Translations under genes and position numbers: made by a program
Assembly: GCF_029212375.1 (NCBI RefSeq)
Contig: NZ_JARGNU010000004.1
Span: forward strand, 1 to 64,000
DNA from: Zhongshania sp.
Lineage (GTDB): Bacteria > Pseudomonadota > Gammaproteobacteria > Pseudomonadales > Spongiibacteraceae
Direction of reading: 5' to 3'
Length of the DNA: 64,000 nucleotides
Notes under the pieces: model-generated
What the model saw: only the letters and a program-made list of their open reading frames with translations
The model's database searches: none
Told to the model about the DNA's origin: nothing
In this document: one piece after another, positions 10,685 through 21,403 of the stretch
Layout of the letters: each line of letters opens with the position of its first letter
Numbering within the stretch: the stretch's first letter is position 1

Positions 10685-13600
10685 GTGTTTGAAGGCTTGA
10701 AAGTTTTTGTGACAACATTCACGAAAAGATCGATTGTTCTTGTGATACTTCTTTTTGCTTTACTTGCGACTGTGATGATCTACTTTTCTGATCACAGTGT
10801 ACGTACAAACGAAGAGCGCCAATTAGAAAGCCACCTGCGAGACGTTGCCGTTGAGCGCAGCAAAGCATTTATGGCGAGTATTGAGCGCATAAAGCGAGAT
10901 GCTGTATTTCTTGCAGGTACTCCCGCAGTCTCGGGTATTATTAGGGCCACGTATAATAACGGCCTAGATTCTAAAGAGAATGATACGACGCAGGTGTGGA
11001 CGGCTCGATTGCAAGAGATTTTTTCGGGTTACTTAAACACTCAGCCAGCGGTTCAGCAAGTTCGATTTATTGGTGTTGCAGATCAAGGGCGTGAATTAGT
11101 CCGAGTCGACAGAAAAGCGCATAACGTTATTGTTATCGAGAACTCAAAACTACAGCGCAAGGCAGATCGTGATTATTTTATAAATGCTTTGGCGCGATCG
11201 CCTGGCGAGGTTTATGCGTCAAAAATTGATCTCAATCGTGAATTCGGGAAAATTGAAGTTCCTCATATTCCGACCCTAAGGCTTGCTACTGCTGTTACAG
11301 ATCAGACAGGAACTGTTTTTGGTGTAATTGTAATTAACGTCAATCTATTGGAGATTTTTGCAGATGCAGTAGCAAGTTTCTCGTCCGCTGAGCAGGTATA
11401 TATTATAAATTCAAGCGGTGATTACCTCATGCACCCAGAAGCCGATAAGGCGTTTGGGTTTGAATTGGGTAAGCCTTTTCGGTGGCAGGATGAATTTGGT
11501 AAAAGTCTTAGTCAAGGGGCGTATAAATTTAAGCGGCTTCGCGACGGAAAGGTGTTTTTTGTTGCAAGCAATGAAAGCTATTATGATCGAGACGACGCTA
11601 TAAAAATAGCCGTTTTGGCGCCAGAAGATAAAGTTAATCAAGTTGTAGCTGACTCTCGACTATTTATTATATTCATTTTACTTTTCTTGTTTATTGTCGG
11701 TCTTATTTTTCTGTACCTTGTGGCTTTGAATATTTCTCGGCAAAGGGAATTTTCGAACCGACGCGCCGGAATAGCGGCTATTGTTGCTGGCTCCAATGAT
11801 GCCATTGTCAGTGAAACACCCGATGGTGTTATTCGTAGCTGGAACGAGGCTGCACAGCAAATGTTTGGTTATAGTGCTGAGCAAGCTTTAGGTAAAACAA
11901 TAGCTAGCCTCATTGTGCCAGACAGTTTAACGGCCGAAGCAGCCAGCCTTCGCGAGCGAGTTTATCGCGGTGAAACCATTCCGAATTTCGAAACCCTGCG
12001 GCAACATCAAAATGGTGAGCTAATTGATGTTTCTGTAACGGTATCGCCGGTTAAGGCGACGGATGGGGAGATAATTGGCGCTTCAAATATCATTCGCGAT
12101 ATTACCGAGACAAAGGCAGCTCAGGCACAATTACTCGAGTTAAACCAAAGTCTTGAGCATCAGGTTGCGGCTCGTACTAAAGAGCTAGAGGCGGCGTCGG
12201 CGCTACAAGAGGCTATTTTTGAAAACGCCGGTTATGCTATTTTTGCCAACGGACGCGACGGAATTATTACTTTGTTTAATCCTGCCGCTGAGGCGATGCT
12301 TGGTTATTCCTCTGAGGAGTTGGTAAACAAGCAGCCAATGCAGATTCTATTCGATAAAACTGAAATAGAAGCTGCATTGGCGGATATGGCAAAGCGCGAA
12401 GCGGCACTAGCAGAAGGACGCAGTGCTGCGCGGAATGCCAAGGAAATTGCACTAGAGGTTAATTTTGAGCGGGAGTGGGAGTTTGTTCGCAAGGATGGTT
12501 CGCGGCTCCCTGTGCAGCTTAAAAGTAATACCTTATACGACAAGGATCACAACGTCACTGGCTACATTGGCATTGCTCGCGATCTGACCGCGCAGAAGCA
12601 ACAACAAATAGAATTGATTGCCGCAAAGGCAAAAGCCGAAGAGGCCAGTAAAACAAAGAGTGAGTTTTTGGCAAATATGAGCCATGAAATTCGCACCCCA
12701 ATGAACGCTGTGCTGGGGATGTTGAATTTACTTAAATACACTGAAATGACCGATCGCCAACTCGATTATGTTGCTAAAGCTAGCGGCGCCGCTGAAGCGC
12801 TATTGGGGATTATCAACGATATTCTCGATTTCTCAAAAATAGAAGCAGGTAAACTTCTACTGGATGTTCGCCCTTTCGCGATTGATGAAGTATTGCGAGA
12901 TATCGCTGTTATTTTGAGTATGAATGTTGGTGATAAGGATGTGGAAATTCTATTTAACATAGACCCAGCGGTGCCAAGAATGGTGCTGGGTGATTCACTG
13001 CGAGTAAAGCAAATTCTCATTAACCTCGCGGGTAATGCGGTTAAGTTTACCGATCACGGCGAGGTGATGTTGTCGGTGTTTGTGCAACACGAGCAAGGTC
13101 AGCGCTTGGTGTTGGGAATTAAGGTTAGCGACACCGGAATTGGAATGTCGACTGAACAGCAAAAGCGTGTTTTTGAATCCTTTACCCAAGCTGAGGCCAC
13201 AACCACGCGGCGATTTGGTGGCACAGGACTCGGTCTTGTTATTTGTCAGCGTTTAATTCGAATGATGGGCGGGGAATTAGAGGTAGAGAGCGAAGAGGGC
13301 AAGGGCAGTACATTTTCTTTTTCACTTATCGCAAACAAAGCCAGCGACGTCCAGCTCGGGGAAGTAAAGCGCCGTCAGCTCCCTCTTGAATACAAAAACA
13401 TGCGTATTTTGGTGATGGATGACAATGATAATGCGCTGCAGATTATCAGCGGTATTTGCCAGTCTCTAGGCTGGGATGTTGAAGAGGCGTCTAGTGGTGA
13501 GATCGGTCTGGCGAAGATTAAGCAAAGTTTTAATGAGGGCCGGCCCTATGATATTGCCTTTATCGATTGGATGATGCCCAAACTTGACGGCTGGCAGACG

Positions 13601-14893
13601 GCTAAGGCAATTCGCGAAATAGAGACCGAGCTGCCCATGCCGCGCCTTATTATGGTAACTGCCCACGCGCGTGAAGTGTTTGCTCAGCGAGTCGATGCCC
13701 ACAATGTACCCTTAGACGGGTTTTTGATGAAGCCAGTTACGGCTTCAGATATTTACAATGCAATTTCCCAAGCGGTATCGGACAAGCCTGCGCGGCCGCA
13801 AGATGCCACCCAGCAGGCACAGACAGCCAATGATGGTTTGGCGGGGATGCGGATATTACTGGTTGAAGACAATATTACTAATCAGCAAGTGGCGCGGGAG
13901 CTGTTGGCAATAGAAGGGGCCGAGATTGAAGTGGCAGATAATGGCCAGATCGCGCTTGATAGTATTCGACATGCAAGCGTACCGTTCGACGTTGTCTTGA
14001 TGGACTTGCAAATGCCCGTGATGGACGGCTATACGGCAACGAAAGAGATTCGTAATACCTTAAAACTTAGCTATTTGCCCATTGTGGCAATGACGGCCAA
14101 CGCCATGCCGGCAGATCGTGAAGCCTGTTTGGCGGCGGGTATGAACGATCATATTGGCAAGCCCTTTGATCTTGCGGAGCTGGTTGCCGTATTACAAAAA
14201 GCCTGTGGGCGTAAGCCGAGCGCCACAGCGGCGCTTGAAGCAGGCGCGGCTACGCCAGATGTTATTCCGTTGCCAGAGCCCCCAGTGGGGTTTTCTTTTA
14301 AAGAAGCATTGCTGCGTATGGGTAATAATCGCGGCTTGTACGCCAGTCAGGCGCGAATGTTTGCTAGCCGTCATGGTCAGGACGTGAATAATATCCATGA
14401 ACTCCTAAAGAGTGGCAGCCGTCCGGCGGTGGTGAGGGAATTGCATACCTTGCGGGGCGTATCTGCGACCCTTGGCGCGCAAGCCTTGGCGGCGTGTTTG
14501 GCTGAAGCTGAAGCTGCTGCCAAGGGGTTAACGGCGCTTGCGGATATTGAGGCGATGTTGGGAACAGCAGATAGTTTGCTGCAAAACGCTTGTGCCGTTA
14601 TGCTTGAACTTGCTGAAACTCTTGTTCCGTCTGCACCGAGTACTGGGGCTGCGGGCGCCGAAACTGCTGGTAGCGGTGCGGTGGATGCCGAAGTTAACAT
14701 TAAGCTCGACGAGTTTGCCGCGTTGCTAAAAGACAGCAATATGCGGGCGTTAGACCTTTTTGCGGAATTAAACGACTTTTTTGTGGCCCAAAATGATGTG
14801 GCTGCGGGTGTGCGAGACGCTATGGCGGGCCTCGATTTTGCCAGCGCCTATGCTGCGCTTACCAAAATGAGAAACGATAAAGAACAACGTTAG
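10685..14893 (+). CDS. Hybrid sensor histidine kinase: Cache-PAS-PAS-HisKA-HATPase-REC-REC-Hpt
   Basis: 1402-residue membrane phosphorelay kinase. Order: TM1 about 16-37; periplasmic double-Cache-type region to about 320; TM2 about 325-347; PAS about 360-480; PAS about 507-637; HisKA with His667 in [16 protein letters not shown]; HATPase with intact N, G1 (DTGIGM) and G2 (GGTGLGL) boxes; REC1 with Asp961 ([12 protein letters not shown]); REC2 with Asp1107 ([13 protein letters not shown]); Hpt with His1254 ([14 protein letters not shown]). All phosphotransfer residues are present, so a full His-Asp-His-Asp relay is possible, with output probably to the REC-GGDEF protein 46 bp downstream. GTG start with AAGGCGAG site. 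The architecture is BarA/TorS-like; the ligand is unknown. Confidence 0.93.
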
Positions 14894-14939
14894 GTGTTTA
14901 TATACAACCGCAATTAAAGACCAATAGTGGACCTAGGGT

Positions 14940-15902
14940 ATGACTGAGATAAACCCCTTGTTTTCGTCGGAATGGATGCCAGACGCACTGTTTCCTGCGC
15001 GACCGCGCTTACTTATTGTTGACGACCAACCTGTTAACCTTCAAGTGTTGTATCAAATTTTTGGCAAGGACAGTGACGTGTTTATGGCGACGAGTGGCCA
15101 GCAGGCATTGGAGGTTTGTCGGCAAAAAAGTCCAGACTTAATTTTATTAGATGTTGTTATGCCCGATATGGACGGCATTGCGGTTTGTAAGCAACTTAAG
15201 GCCGACCCAGAGACTCAGAATATTCCCGTGATTTTTGTTACCTCCCAAGATAGCCCTGAAGAGGAAACTCAGGGGCTAGAAGTTGGTGCAGTAGACTTTA
15301 TTACCAAACCGGTAAATCCGGCGGTGGTTAGAGCGCGAGTCAAAACCCATTTAACACTCAAGGTTCAGGCTGACGCCCTGCGAACTTTAGCGTCTATTGA
15401 CGGCTTGACCGGCATTCCCAATCGCCGCTTATTTGACGAACGCATGGCGGCGGAGTGGCGCGCTTGCCGGCGCGCTAATACGTCATTGTCGGTCATTATG
15501 ATCGATGTTGATCATTTCAAAAAATACAACGACCACTACGGTCATTTAGAAGGCGATAATTGTCTTAAGCAAGTGGCAAAAATCCTTCGCGACGGCAATT
15601 GGCGGGGGCGAGATTTAGTCGCCCGCTACGGTGGCGAAGAATTTGTTTGTCTTATGCCCGAAACCGATTTAATTGGTGCAAAGAGTAAAGCTGAAAGCCT
15701 GCGGCGGCAGCTCGAAGATCTAGCTTTGCCTCACGATGCATCGGCTAATGCTGCTTACGTCACCATCAGCGTTGGCGTAGCGACGATTGTCCCGCTGGAT
15801 GAAAATGACGTGGCGGTATTATTGGGGGCTGCGGATGAGCAATTGTATAAAGCGAAGCAAGGTGGCCGAAATCGGGTCGAGGGCCGCGATCTAAGTGCGT
15901 AA
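14940..15902 (+). CDS. Response regulator with GGDEF domain (diguanylate cyclase)
   Basis: 320 residues. REC at about 23-140 with acidic pair VDDQ, phospho-acceptor in LILLDVVMPDMDG and Lys in FITKPVNP. GGDEF at about 155-315 with DGLTGIPNRRLFD, catalytic RYGGEEF and an I-site RGRD just before it, so c-di-GMP synthesis with product inhibition is expected. It follows the hybrid kinase by 46 bp on the same strand and is the natural end point of that relay. Its last 12 bases overlap the convergent FHA-EAL gene, which may oppose it. Confidence 0.93.
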   Translation: MTEINPLFSSEWMPDALFPARPRLLIVDDQPVNLQVLYQIFGKDSDVFMATSGQQALEVCRQKSPDLILLDVVMPDMDGIAVCKQLKADPETQNIPVIFVTSQDSPEEETQGLEVGAVDFITKPVNPAVVRARVKTHLTLKVQADALRTLASIDGLTGIPNRRLFDERMAAEWRACRRANTSLSVIMIDVDHFKKYNDHYGHLEGDNCLKQVAKILRDGNWRGRDLVARYGGEEFVCLMPETDLIGAKSKAESLRRQLEDLALPHDASANAAYVTISVGVATIVPLDENDVAVLLGAADEQLYKAKQGGRNRVEGRDLSA

Positions 15903-16991
15903 TTGATCCACATGGATTTCGGCTGGGCGGCCAAAGTAAAAGCCCTGAAAGTAATCGATGCCCATGGCTATGCAGGCATCAGCCACTTCTTTGTTTTCTA
16001 TACCTTCGGCTAGGGTCGCAATTCCCATATCCTGAACAAGAGTGTTTAGCGACGAGAGTAGGCGGTTATGGGCAGAATCTTTGGCGCCAACGCCTTTAAC
16101 GAGGCAGATATCAAATTTAAGAATGTCGGGAGGCACCTCGGCCAATTCCAGTAGGCGAGTCTGCCCAGCGCCAAAGTCATCGTAGGCTAGGCCAATGTTT
16201 AAGTCGTTAAGGCCGGCGCGAATTCGCTTCATGAGCTTAATGTCGGTTACGGCAGTTTCGTGCACTTCAAATATTAAGCGTAAATCTGGGTAGCAGCGAC
16301 GCAGGTGTTGTAAACCAGAAAATAATTTTTCTGGTGCTTGGCATTCCAATGGATGACAGTTGAAAAATAAAGGCGTGTTGATATTGGCGGCACTTGCCAT
16401 TGCAAAGCTGCGCTGCCGAAGTAGCTCGCTCAATTCGACTTCTTTCGACATTTGCTCGGCGATCATAAAGAGTTCGAATGGATTCTCATTTAAATTGGGG
16501 TGACGGCCACGCCCCAGTAATTCGTAACCATATAAATCTCCGTTACGATCCATAATGCATTGTTGATAGCTAGTAACGCAGCCTTGTTCTAAGAGCTCCA
16601 AGAACTCTCGCCCGCGAATAGGGTAGTTGCTAGTTAAGGCTCGGTGATTAATCCGAGTGCGGTCATCGGCGCTGTCGTCGACAATCTTGGGCGCGTGCTT
16701 TAGGCAGTATTCCACTCCGGCAAAATGCACCACATCGCCATTGTGTATTGGCGCCGATTCAGTAAGGCGCTGATGGTTGATGAAGCTGCCATTAGTGCTG
16801 CCAAGGTCGGTTAAGGTGAGTGTGTCGTTGTGCCATTCGATGCGAGCGTGGCGCCGCGAAAGCGCTGAGTTATTAATTACAAAATCGCAATCAGTGCTAC
16901 GGCCAACTGTAATTGGCAGGGCGTGGAGTGGAATTTGTTGAGGGAAATCCATGCTTCTGCTGAAGCTTTCTAGATAATAATGGCTATCCAT
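15891..16991 (-). CDS. FHA-EAL domain protein (c-di-GMP phosphodiesterase)
   Basis: 366 residues. N-terminal FHA domain at about 15-95 with the phosphothreonine-binding pattern VGRSTDCDFVI, SALSRRHARI and GSTNGSFIN. C-terminal EAL domain at about 130-360: YELLGRG in place of EAL, LFFNCHP, FEVHETAV, AYDDFGAGQ, LKFDICLVK, LAEGIE and DYFQGFYFG. Most metal ligands and the DDFGAG loop are kept, so hydrolysis is plausible, although ELL instead of EAL leaves some doubt. The FHA part implies control by Thr-phosphorylated partners. It converges on, and overlaps by 12 bp, the diguanylate cyclase gene, pairing synthesis and breakdown at one locus. Confidence 0.9.
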   Translation of the reverse strand: MDSHYYLESFSRSMDFPQQIPLHALPITVGRSTDCDFVINNSALSRRHARIEWHNDTLTLTDLGSTNGSFINHQRLTESAPIHNGDVVHFAGVEYCLKHAPKIVDDSADDRTRINHRALTSNYPIRGREFLELLEQGCVTSYQQCIMDRNGDLYGYELLGRGRHPNLNENPFELFMIAEQMSKEVELSELLRQRSFAMASAANINTPLFFNCHPLECQAPEKLFSGLQHLRRCYPDLRLIFEVHETAVTDIKLMKRIRAGLNDLNIGLAYDDFGAGQTRLLELAEVPPDILKFDICLVKGVGAKDSAHNRLLSSLNTLVQDMGIATLAEGIENKEVADACIAMGIDYFQGFYFGRPAEIHVDQLRT

Positions 16992-19111: not shown

Positions 19112-20635
19112 ATGAAAGATCAGGATGCAGTAAATGACTTACTGTCGCGCACCAAAGCTATTGTCGAAACGATTGTGGATGGCGTTATCACTATCAGTGA
19201 TCGCGGTTTAATTGAAACGGTTAATCCGGCTGCAGAAAACATCTTTGGCTACAGCTTAGCGGAATTGTCTGGGCAGAATGTTGCTATGTTAATGCCCAAC
19301 CCCTATCGCAAAGAGCACGACGGCTATCTGGATAATTATCTAAGCACAGGCGATAAGAAAATTATTGGTATTGGCCGCGAAGTAACGGGGCTGCGTAAAG
19401 ACGGTACTACTTTTCCTCTAGAACTCGCCATTAGCGAGATGGAAGTTAACGGCCAGCGGATGTTTACCGGTATTGTTCGGGACATCTCCCAGCGTAAAGT
19501 GACGGAAGACAAGTTGCGAGAGCTCTTTGCCCGCACTAAAGCCATTCTCGACACCATTGTAGATGGCGTTATTACCATCAGTGATCGCGGTAGCATAGAA
19601 ACCGTGAACCCCGCTGCGGAAAAGATTTTTGGTTACCGCCTAGATGAAATTAGCGGCCGGAATGTGTCAATGCTAATGCCGGCACCGTACCGGAGTGAGC
19701 ACGACGGTTACCTTAGTAATTACTTGAATACCGGCGAGAAAAAGATTATCGGAATTGGCCGCGAAGTAACAGGCTTGCGTAAAGACGGCACTACTTTTCC
19801 TCTAGAACTTGCCATTAGTGAGATGGAGGTCAATGGTCAGCGTATGTTTACGGGTATTGTGCGCGATATATCTGAGCGTCAAGAGACCGAAGAGAAACTG
19901 CGCGAAGCCATGCGGCGAGTGCACGAGCAGCGAATTAAAGACGAATTTATTGCCACGGTGAGTCATGAGTTGCGAACCCCGTTGACGTCGATTAAGGCCG
20001 CTTTGGAATTAATTATTGGCGATGTTGTTGTAGCAGGTTCAGACCAAGAAAAAATGCTAATCAGTATCGCGCATAAAAACAGCGACCGCTTATTACTATT
20101 GATTAACGACATTTTGGATATATCTAAAATCGAATCTGAAAAAATGCAGCTGAATCTAAAACGGGTGTCAGTGCGTCGCTTTTTGGAAACGGCTATTTCA
20201 GACAACCAAGCCTATGCCGAAAAGCATCATGTTAAGTTTAGCCTGCTCCGCTGTTCAAAAAACCTTTATATTCATGTCGATCCCGACCGGCTTATGCAGG
20301 TAATGAGTAATTTAATGTCGAATGCCGCGAAATTTTCGCACCAAAATGCATTGGTCGAAGTACTGGCCGAGCAACGGGCGGAAAATGTTCGTATCACAGT
20401 GCGCGATAAAGGCCCTGGTATTCCCTTAAGTTTCCAAGGCAGAGTGTTTGATAAATTTACTCAGGCAGACACCTCAGATAAACGCCAGATGAGTGGTACG
20501 GGTTTGGGGCTGCACATTTCGAAAGCGATTATAGAACGGCATCATGGCGAGCTTTCCTTTGAGTCTGTTATTGGCGAAGGAACCGAATTTCATATTGATC
20601 TTAAACAGCAAATACAACGACAAGGAAACCAGTGA
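19112..20635 (+). CDS. Sensor histidine kinase with two FixL-like (heme-type) PAS domains
   Basis: 507 residues from ATG 19112 (CAGGAGAT site). Two PAS domains, at about 13-135 and 141-263, are near-identical tandem copies. Both keep the FixL features: EHDGYL with His69 and His197, and GIGREV with Arg89 and Arg217, each His-Arg pair exactly 20 residues apart, as are the heme-ligand His and oxygen-sensing Arg of FixL. HisKA follows with His285 (TVSHELRTPLTSI) and a complete HATPase (DKGPGI, GTGLGL). There is no membrane segment, so it is cytoplasmic. It is coupled (TGATG) to a receiver gene and then an Hpt gene. An oxygen or NO sensing role is inferred from the PAS residues, not shown. Confidence 0.88.
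   Translation: MKDQDAVNDLLSRTKAIVETIVDGVITISDRGLIETVNPAAENIFGYSLAELSGQNVAMLMPNPYRKEHDGYLDNYLSTGDKKIIGIGREVTGLRKDGTTFPLELAISEMEVNGQRMFTGIVRDISQRKVTEDKLRELFARTKAILDTIVDGVITISDRGSIETVNPAAEKIFGYRLDEISGRNVSMLMPAPYRSEHDGYLSNYLNTGEKKIIGIGREVTGLRKDGTTFPLELAISEMEVNGQRMFTGIVRDISERQETEEKLREAMRRVHEQRIKDEFIATVSHELRTPLTSIKAALELIIGDVVVAGSDQEKMLISIAHKNSDRLLLLINDILDISKIESEKMQLNLKRVSVRRFLETAISDNQAYAEKHHVKFSLLRCSKNLYIHVDPDRLMQVMSNLMSNAAKFSHQNALVEVLAEQRAENVRITVRDKGPGIPLSFQGRVFDKFTQADTSDKRQMSGTGLGLHISKAIIERHHGELSFESVIGEGTEFHIDLKQQIQRQGNQ
19148..19903 (+). repeat. Intragenic tandem duplication of PAS unit (384-bp period)
   Basis: Unit 1 begins at 19148 (RTKAIVETIVDG) and unit 2 at 19532 (RTKAILDTIVDG). Long protein blocks are identical between units, for example EVTGLRKDGTTFPLELAIS and EVNGQRMFTGIVRDIS. 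The DNA differs mainly at synonymous sites, so the duplication is not fresh but the protein has been kept nearly uniform. Confidence 0.9.
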
Positions 20636-21030
20636 TGAAAGGCTACGCAGCACTGGAAAAGATTTTATACATCGAGGATGAACCCGATATACGCTTAGTT
20701 GCTGAAATCGCCTTGCGCCAAGTTGGAAAATTAAACGTTATTACTTGTGCCAATGGCGAAGAGGGTTTGAGCTTGATTCATGAGTTCATGCCGCAGCTGA
20801 TTATTTTGGATGTAATGATGCCTGGAATGGACGGGCCGCAAATACTGAGCAAGCTTCGAACGATGCCTGAATTTATGCTTACGCCAGTTATTTTTATTAC
20901 GGCGAAAGTGCAACCCGATGAAGTTGAACAATTTAAAAAGCTCGGCGCGGTTGATGTGATTACCAAGCCCTTCCATCCCATGACCTTAGCAAACGACGTA
21001 CGCGCAATCTGGGCAACGTGCCATGAGTGA
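20635..21030 (+). CDS. Single-domain response regulator (REC)
   Basis: 131 residues, one receiver domain only: acidic pair IEDEPD, phospho-acceptor Asp59 in LIILDVMMPGMDG, Thr in FITAK and Lys in VITKPFHPM. No output domain, so it works as a phosphate shuttle or by protein contact. It overlaps the kinase stop (TGATG) and the next gene's start, giving a three-gene phosphorelay. GTG 20632 is an alternative start; ATG 20635 has the better spacing from AAGGAA. Confidence 0.92.
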   Translation: MKGYAALEKILYIEDEPDIRLVAEIALRQVGKLNVITCANGEEGLSLIHEFMPQLIILDVMMPGMDGPQILSKLRTMPEFMLTPVIFITAKVQPDEVEQFKKLGAVDVITKPFHPMTLANDVRAIWATCHE

Positions 21031-21403
21031 TGACGAATTTAGTGGAAGCGCTAGTGTGGATTCACAATTGCTTGAGCTTCAAAACGACTATATTGCGGGC
21101 TTGCGTGGCCGCATTACGCCGTTAATGAATGCATGGCAAAAATGTGTCAATAGCGACTATGCCGCAGATTCGCTGCAAGAGGTTTACCGCAGTGTGCACG
21201 CGATTGCGGGCACTTCAAGTATGCTGAATGTAAGTCCTGTCGATGTTTTCAGTAATAAAGCGCAGGTATTAATACACGGACTAATGAATACTGACGATAG
21301 GGATTCTGCGCTGTTTATTGAACTGGATAAAACACTAAAGACGTTAGAGTTGGCGGTGTTATCTGGTGAGGTTAAGGCACCGCCTATTAACCTGAATGGC
21401 TAA
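21023..21403 (+). CDS. Hpt-domain phosphotransfer protein
   Basis: 126 residues, predicted all-helical. His59 lies in YRSVHAIAGTSSMLNV, the Hpt signature (H-x-[IL]-[KA]-G...A/S). Starts 8 bp inside the upstream receiver gene, so it is translated with it. It presumably passes phosphate from the receiver to an unlinked output regulator; no DNA-binding or enzymatic output regulator is in this operon. Confidence 0.8.
   Translation: MSDDEFSGSASVDSQLLELQNDYIAGLRGRITPLMNAWQKCVNSDYAADSLQEVYRSVHAIAGTSSMLNVSPVDVFSNKAQVLIHGLMNTDDRDSALFIELDKTLKTLELAVLSGEVKAPPINLNG

Follow-up and report, generated by a model that had tools for sequence, protein, structure and literature searches.

A FixL-like histidine kinase with two putative heme-PAS domains and a predicted receiver-Hpt relay in Zhongshania

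Can a single histidine kinase carry two heme-based oxygen sensors in a row, and to what would it pass its signal? The question is raised by a locus at positions 19112-21403 of a 64-kb stretch of DNA from Zhongshania sp. (NZ_JARGNU010000004.1, assembly GCF_029212375.1), called the window throughout, in a genome of 3.8 Mb. A preliminary description had proposed a phosphorelay kinase with duplicated FixL-like heme-PAS domains; the reading frames it gave for the kinase, the receiver and the Hpt-like protein, and its positions for His69, Arg89, His197 and Arg217, were all recovered (Table 1).

Locus layout and age of the PAS repeat

The kinase, receiver and Hpt-like genes form one unit of three overlapping genes, an arrangement in favour of a relay fed by a dual-heme sensor. 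The kinase displays the features of class I histidine kinases, a HisKA domain with its phospho-acceptor His and a HATPase_c domain, both with Pfam scores above the cut-offs, and His285 was invariant in 17/17 aligned kinases. PAS unit 1 begins at residue 13, leaving no room before it for a membrane anchor. The closest relatives of the kinase belong to Zhongshania and Spongiibacter. The FixL equivalog model NF041777 was still the top NCBIfam match, but the score of 338 bits lies far below its cut-off of 850, which by sequence criteria counts against a dual-heme FixL-type kinase. Adjoining genes just upstream (window 10685-16991) may form a c-di-GMP cluster; they encode a large hybrid kinase with multiple PAS domains, a receiver protein in which a GGEEF motif was recognised by eye, and a Pfam-assigned FHA-EAL protein.

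Table 1 Features of the kinase, receiver and Hpt-like genes, in window coordinates
Feature	Position	Strand	Basis
FixL-like histidine kinase, 507 aa from ATG	19112..20635	+	ORF, Pfam PAS-PAS-HisKA-HATPase_c; phospho-acceptor His285
PAS unit 1 (residues 13-136)	19148..19519	+	Repeat copy; ungapped match to FixL heme-PAS
His69 codon	19316..19318	+	Aligned with FixL proximal His
Arg89 codon	19376..19378	+	Aligned with FixL distal Arg
PAS unit 2 (residues 141-264)	19532..19903	+	Repeat copy; ungapped match to FixL heme-PAS
His197 codon	19700..19702	+	Aligned with FixL proximal His
Arg217 codon	19760..19762	+	Aligned with FixL distal Arg
Lone receiver, 131 aa	20635..21030	+	Pfam Response_reg 89.5 bits; ATG overlaps kinase stop
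Receiver phospho-acceptor Asp59 codon	20809-20811	+	Read from sequence
Hpt-like phosphotransfer protein, 126 aa	21023..21403	+	Overlaps receiver gene by 8 nt
Hpt-like protein His59 codon	21197-21199	+	Invariant in 9/9 aligned

Within the kinase gene, a direct repeat 300 nt long with a spacing of 384 nt was detected, although the repeat pair was not reported by Tandem Repeats Finder at its default threshold. The two PAS units share 85.5% of their residues over 124 positions, including an identical block of 45 residues (82-126 and 210-254) in which many codons nonetheless differ. At the DNA level, identity was 77% overall and 50.8% at third codon positions, and NG86 estimates between units 1 and 2 were 0.10 for dN and 1.75 for dS. 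DNA identity of this order with silent sites near saturation indicates that the duplication is old, and the low dN relative to dS indicates, from the sequences, that both copies are under purifying selection. A recent duplication as the source of the similarity was rejected: third positions matched at only 39.5-52.4% in 10/10 genomes with two units, and dS exceeded 1.6 in the 7 unit pairs for which it was computable, the 3 other pairs being saturated. The proposal that the domains are near-identical tandem copies was therefore borne out for the tandem order, the 384-bp period and the 45-residue block, but not for the DNA, where only 77% identity is left after an old duplication.

Heme residues and the FixL match

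When compared with the heme-PAS domain of SmFixL (PDB 1d06), PAS units 1 and 2 gave E values of 5e-35 and 2.2e-36, respectively, a sequence match far beyond chance. In the PDB, the 13 top-ranking distinct sequences were FixL or DosP for unit 1 and likewise for unit 2. Both units aligned without gaps with the SmFixL (1d06) and BjFixL (1dp6) domains. This alignment, named beforehand as the test of the heme assignment, placed His69 and His197 on the column of the FixL proximal His and not away from it, and Arg89 and Arg217 on that of the distal Arg, so that the claim that both units hold the FixL heme and oxygen residues stood. In BjFixL numbering, these positions correspond to His200 and Arg220. 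An AlphaFold model of the kinase of moderate quality (pLDDT 79.3, pTM 0.43) had His69 in helix 65-79 and His197 in helix 193-207, the F helices. Foldseek searches with this model ranked other kinases first, followed by the FixL PAS-A/PAS-B structures 8js5 and 8js6 (250-260 columns, rmsd 3.9-4.4).

A clear orthologue of the kinase was found in 16 of the 21 family genomes searched, 18 of which are in the genus (Zhongshania/Spongiibacter); ten orthologues have two PAS units and six have one. All 26 units keep the His and, 20 residues on, the distal Arg, extending to the orthologues the spacing first described for the window kinase. Residues equivalent to Tyr203, Ile216 and Leu236 were likewise invariant in the 26 units, those equivalent to Ile215 and Ile238 were Ile in 24 units, with Val in the remaining 2, and the Asp212 equivalent was variable. 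Against an oxygen sensor with two hemes, the equivalent of FixL Arg206 was Asn in 25/26 units and Ser in one. Two residues of SmFixL, Arg200 and Ile209, are discussed in the available portion of PMC10765370, where variants at Arg200 (the position of BjFixL Arg206) are described as keeping their heme spectra and autoxidising in air. With Asn at this position, the units described here may oxidise more readily than FixL.

According to excerpts of PMC10468136, heme binding within the FixL PAS cluster is determined primarily by the F-helix His, 40% of the sequences in that cluster are without this residue and possibly have other functions, and FixL-type heme-PAS domains are common; novelty therefore cannot rest on the domain alone. 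As a control, the fetched loci, without the Zhongshania/Spongiibacter orthologues, were searched with a profile built from the 26 orthologous units, which returned 165 units. Both His and Arg were kept in 38/39 units scoring at least 120 bits and in 6/126 scoring below 120 bits, a contrast that leans slightly towards this result because the profile units all had both residues and the loci were chosen by similarity. At the sequence level, these counts indicate that the His/Arg pair is a mark of the subfamily and not a general feature of PAS domains.

Relay partners, gene neighbourhood and unit number

The receiver gene adjoins the kinase gene in 16/16 orthologues, and its product has no output domain. 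An Hpt gene is adjacent in 13/16; none was found next to the receiver in G016 and G018, and in G006 it lies about 38 kb away. A Mu-type transposase gene and a CI-like repressor gene directly follow the receiver gene in G006 (L137:10285-15366, and L148:7323 onward for the other part), where the relay operon appears to have been split by a Mu-like prophage. In both G018 (L141:10543-11046) and G016 (L140 at 10503), which have two-unit kinases and no nearby Hpt, a gene for a BLUF blue-light sensor is the convergent neighbour of the receiver gene; it was called by Pfam in G018 and as a member of the same cluster in G016.

The Hpt-like protein of the window scored 17.4 bits with the Pfam Hpt model, below the gathering cut-off of 24.6, and this shortfall, together with the missing neighbour in 3/16 genomes, counts against a relay. 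The Hpt assignment is based on the invariant His59, from the 4/4 scanned relatives that pass the Pfam cut-off and from a model (pLDDT 86.8) with four helices and His59 in the second. No Foldseek match to this model was obtained at E 0.001 or better; in a fold comparison, Hpt domains reached Z 10-12 and designed bundles scored higher. Compared with the kinase, the Hpt protein is diverging far more quickly: identity to Z. antarctica, the closest named relative, is 45% for the Hpt protein and 87% for the kinase.

The preliminary description had also found no FixJ-type regulator nearby, in agreement with a genome-wide count of 14 GerE hits, all of them on contigs other than that of the window. Its further point, that the output is unusual for FixL, held for the lone receiver and the Hpt-like partner; the output is less odd than it seemed, since a hybrid form of the FixL kinase that has a receiver aspartate has reportedly been published.

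In 7/16 genomes, the kinase set follows the same run of genes, for cytochrome bo3 oxidase and a RegB/RegA-like pair. In G006, the one of these seven that was scanned, CyoA, CyoB, CyoC and CyoD of the cytochrome bo3 ubiquinol oxidase scored above curated cut-offs; SURF1 is encoded there too, and the RegB-like and RegA-like proteins were best matches below equivalog cut-offs. Against an oxygen sensor, the other nine orthologues, that of the window included, are not beside respiratory genes: five kinases follow a different gene run, with an error-prone polymerase and an IMS-family protein among its products in G018, and four, again with the window, have other neighbours. The RegB-like gene of the window's genome is on another contig. 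In the 400 bp preceding the kinase, 14/16 genomes, the window among them, lack an FNR-like box and 2/16 have one. Although FNR-box-like sites with up to two mismatches were enriched over the whole window (45 sites, where shuffles averaged 28 and 0/100 reached that number), the lack of one within 400 bp of the window kinase makes an FNR/Anr box of no help as support for a link to oxygen. A sigma-70 scan likewise found no site upstream of this kinase. The neighbourhood thus backs a role in oxygen or respiration only partly.

The number of PAS units appears to have changed more than once among the orthologues. A single clade of two-unit kinases was rejected on the kinase-core and receiver tree (p-AU 0.0003), the best tree having three unit-number changes, two of them forced by well-supported branches. 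The single-unit kinases of G008 and G010 were nested inside a supported two-unit group (100/99). A tree built from seven oxidase and RegB/RegA-like proteins encoded nearby paired G008 with G009, which has two units (98/96), and rejected a clade uniting G008 with G010 (p-AU 0.02). From this pairing and the rejected clade, at least two separate losses of a PAS unit are probable. However, the PAS-unit trees were weakly resolved and did not reject a clade grouping all the first units (p-AU 0.22) or one grouping all the second units (0.19), which leaves room for a single old duplication followed by losses. Assembly collapse in the single-unit genomes is unlikely because within-genome copies are only 70-78% identical in DNA. 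The single unit of G008 has two first-unit-like residues at the start of its eight diagnostic positions, with five second-unit-like ones and one that is neither, a pattern suggesting that it may have arisen by a recombination deletion between the units, although its 21 diagnostic bases are mixed. An extension of these findings, in which in-frame tandem gains and losses would turn unit number into an evolutionary dial, the same receiver-Hpt relay being kept and copy number governing either the threshold of the response to oxygen or its shape, is quite unlikely.

Tandem units were also sought in a sample of 369 genomes from the class, where a search with the two-PAS region at E 1e-20 matched 167. 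Among 30 fetched loci that were read, adjacent units both with His and Arg were seen in the window genome and at least four others (G204, G189, G321 and G152), which belong to other families. Three of the proteins have a kinase domain, accompanied by a GAF domain in G204, by GAFs in G189 and by two receivers in G152; the G321 frame runs off the end of its contig. This survey, proposed with the initial sequence reading, shows that such tandem units occur outside the window as well. No FixL-type kinase with two heme-PAS domains was among the literature matches listed, which is weak evidence given that subscription papers lay mostly outside the search.

Proposed mechanism and comparison with known systems

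Taken together, the sequence data make it fairly probable that the locus encodes a soluble, cytoplasmic, dual-heme oxygen-sensing kinase of FixL type with a duplicated heme-PAS, feeding a REC-Hpt phosphorelay. By homology, each PAS unit would hold one heme b through its F-helix His (His69, His197), and Arg89 and Arg217 would be positioned for contact with the oxygen that binds there. PAS2, beside the kinase domain, would likely be the direct switch and PAS1 probably a modulator, to judge from Aer2 precedents. As in FixL, oxygen binding would inhibit autophosphorylation, here at His285, and phosphate would flow from the kinase to Asp59 of the receiver, then to His59 of the Hpt protein and on to a final regulator encoded elsewhere. 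Our best guess for the output, by analogy with an Hpt-REC-REC-GGDEF fusion in Thiomicrorhabdus, would be c-di-GMP, the other candidate being transcriptional control.

Several other readings were weighed. Only one unit might be a working heme oxygen sensor, the other being a structural, dimerising or signal-passing PAS. BjFixL offers a model for this, since of its two PAS domains only the second is reported to sense oxygen through heme (excerpts of PMC8534201), and the first of the three units in Thiomicrorhabdus arctica has lost both His and Arg. Both residues are nevertheless kept in both units of 10/10 two-unit orthologues and dN/dS between the units is low, and we regard a single sensor as unlikely, if of some weight. 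Alternatively, the units might bind heme and respond to redox state, NO, CO or heme itself. The Asn at the Arg206 position, considered with the autoxidising SmFixL variants (PMC10765370, in part), points in that direction, as do the RegB/RegA-like redox pair upstream in 7/16 genomes and FlrB, a PAS kinase that according to part of a preprint (PMC13060918) detects heme itself; the distal Arg, which stabilises bound oxygen in FixL, is kept in every one of the 26 units, which makes such a signal distinctly improbable. Finally, cofactor binding cannot be shown by sequence alone, and the 40% of the FixL PAS cluster without the His (PMC10468136, in part) would allow the units to be ordinary heme-free PAS domains that bind some other ligand, or no ligand at all, and resemble FixL by family only. 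Since the His is present in these units and their closest solved relatives are heme proteins, this is very improbable.

Under the favoured dual-heme reading, the kinase would be informative about extra sensor copies. The effect of a second copy has, as far as we found, been studied in Aer2 chemoreceptors only. One-unit and two-unit orthologues that always share the same receiver, and mostly the same Hpt protein, provide a ready comparison of sensor copy number, and related kinases with one, two or three units form a natural series on the role of the additional copies.

Among known systems, FixL of B. japonicum and S. meliloti is similar in the ungapped heme-PAS alignment, the conserved His and Arg and the HisKA/HATPase kinase, and BjFixL is likewise a soluble protein with two PAS domains (PMC8534201, in part). 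The window kinase differs from FixL in having the heme residues in both PAS domains and Asn for Arg206, and in place of FixJ with its receiver-GerE pairing it is accompanied by a receiver on its own and an Hpt protein. E. coli DosP belongs to the same heme-PAS cluster (PMC10468136, in part) and gave the next-best PDB matches after FixL, but these were far weaker (best E 4e-14 and 5e-17), and DosP is a c-di-GMP phosphodiesterase and not a kinase. Thiomicrorhabdus kinases at L014 and L016 are 55% and 58% identical to the window kinase, have three and two FixL-type units, respectively, and show the same order of kinase, receiver and Hpt. They differ in two extra receivers within the kinase and in the fusion of Hpt to REC-REC-GGDEF at both loci; in the three-unit kinase of T. 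arctica, the two units other than the first keep both His and Arg. The tandem arrangement is shared with the Aer2 chemoreceptors of Vibrio cholerae and V. vulnificus, where two or three heme-PAS domains follow one another in one oxygen sensor and the three of V. vulnificus have similar oxygen affinities and different signalling roles (PMC13401364, in part). Such similar affinities mean that a second heme need not steepen or widen the response, as the preliminary description had thought it could. The Aer2 PAS domains, however, come from a heme-PAS cluster that is not related to this one and has its His elsewhere (PMC10468136, in part), and their output is that of a chemoreceptor, whereas the window kinase has HisKA-HATPase_c and no MCP domain among its Pfam hits. 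The kinase thus resembles both FixL and the tandem Aer2 sensors and fits the full definition of neither.
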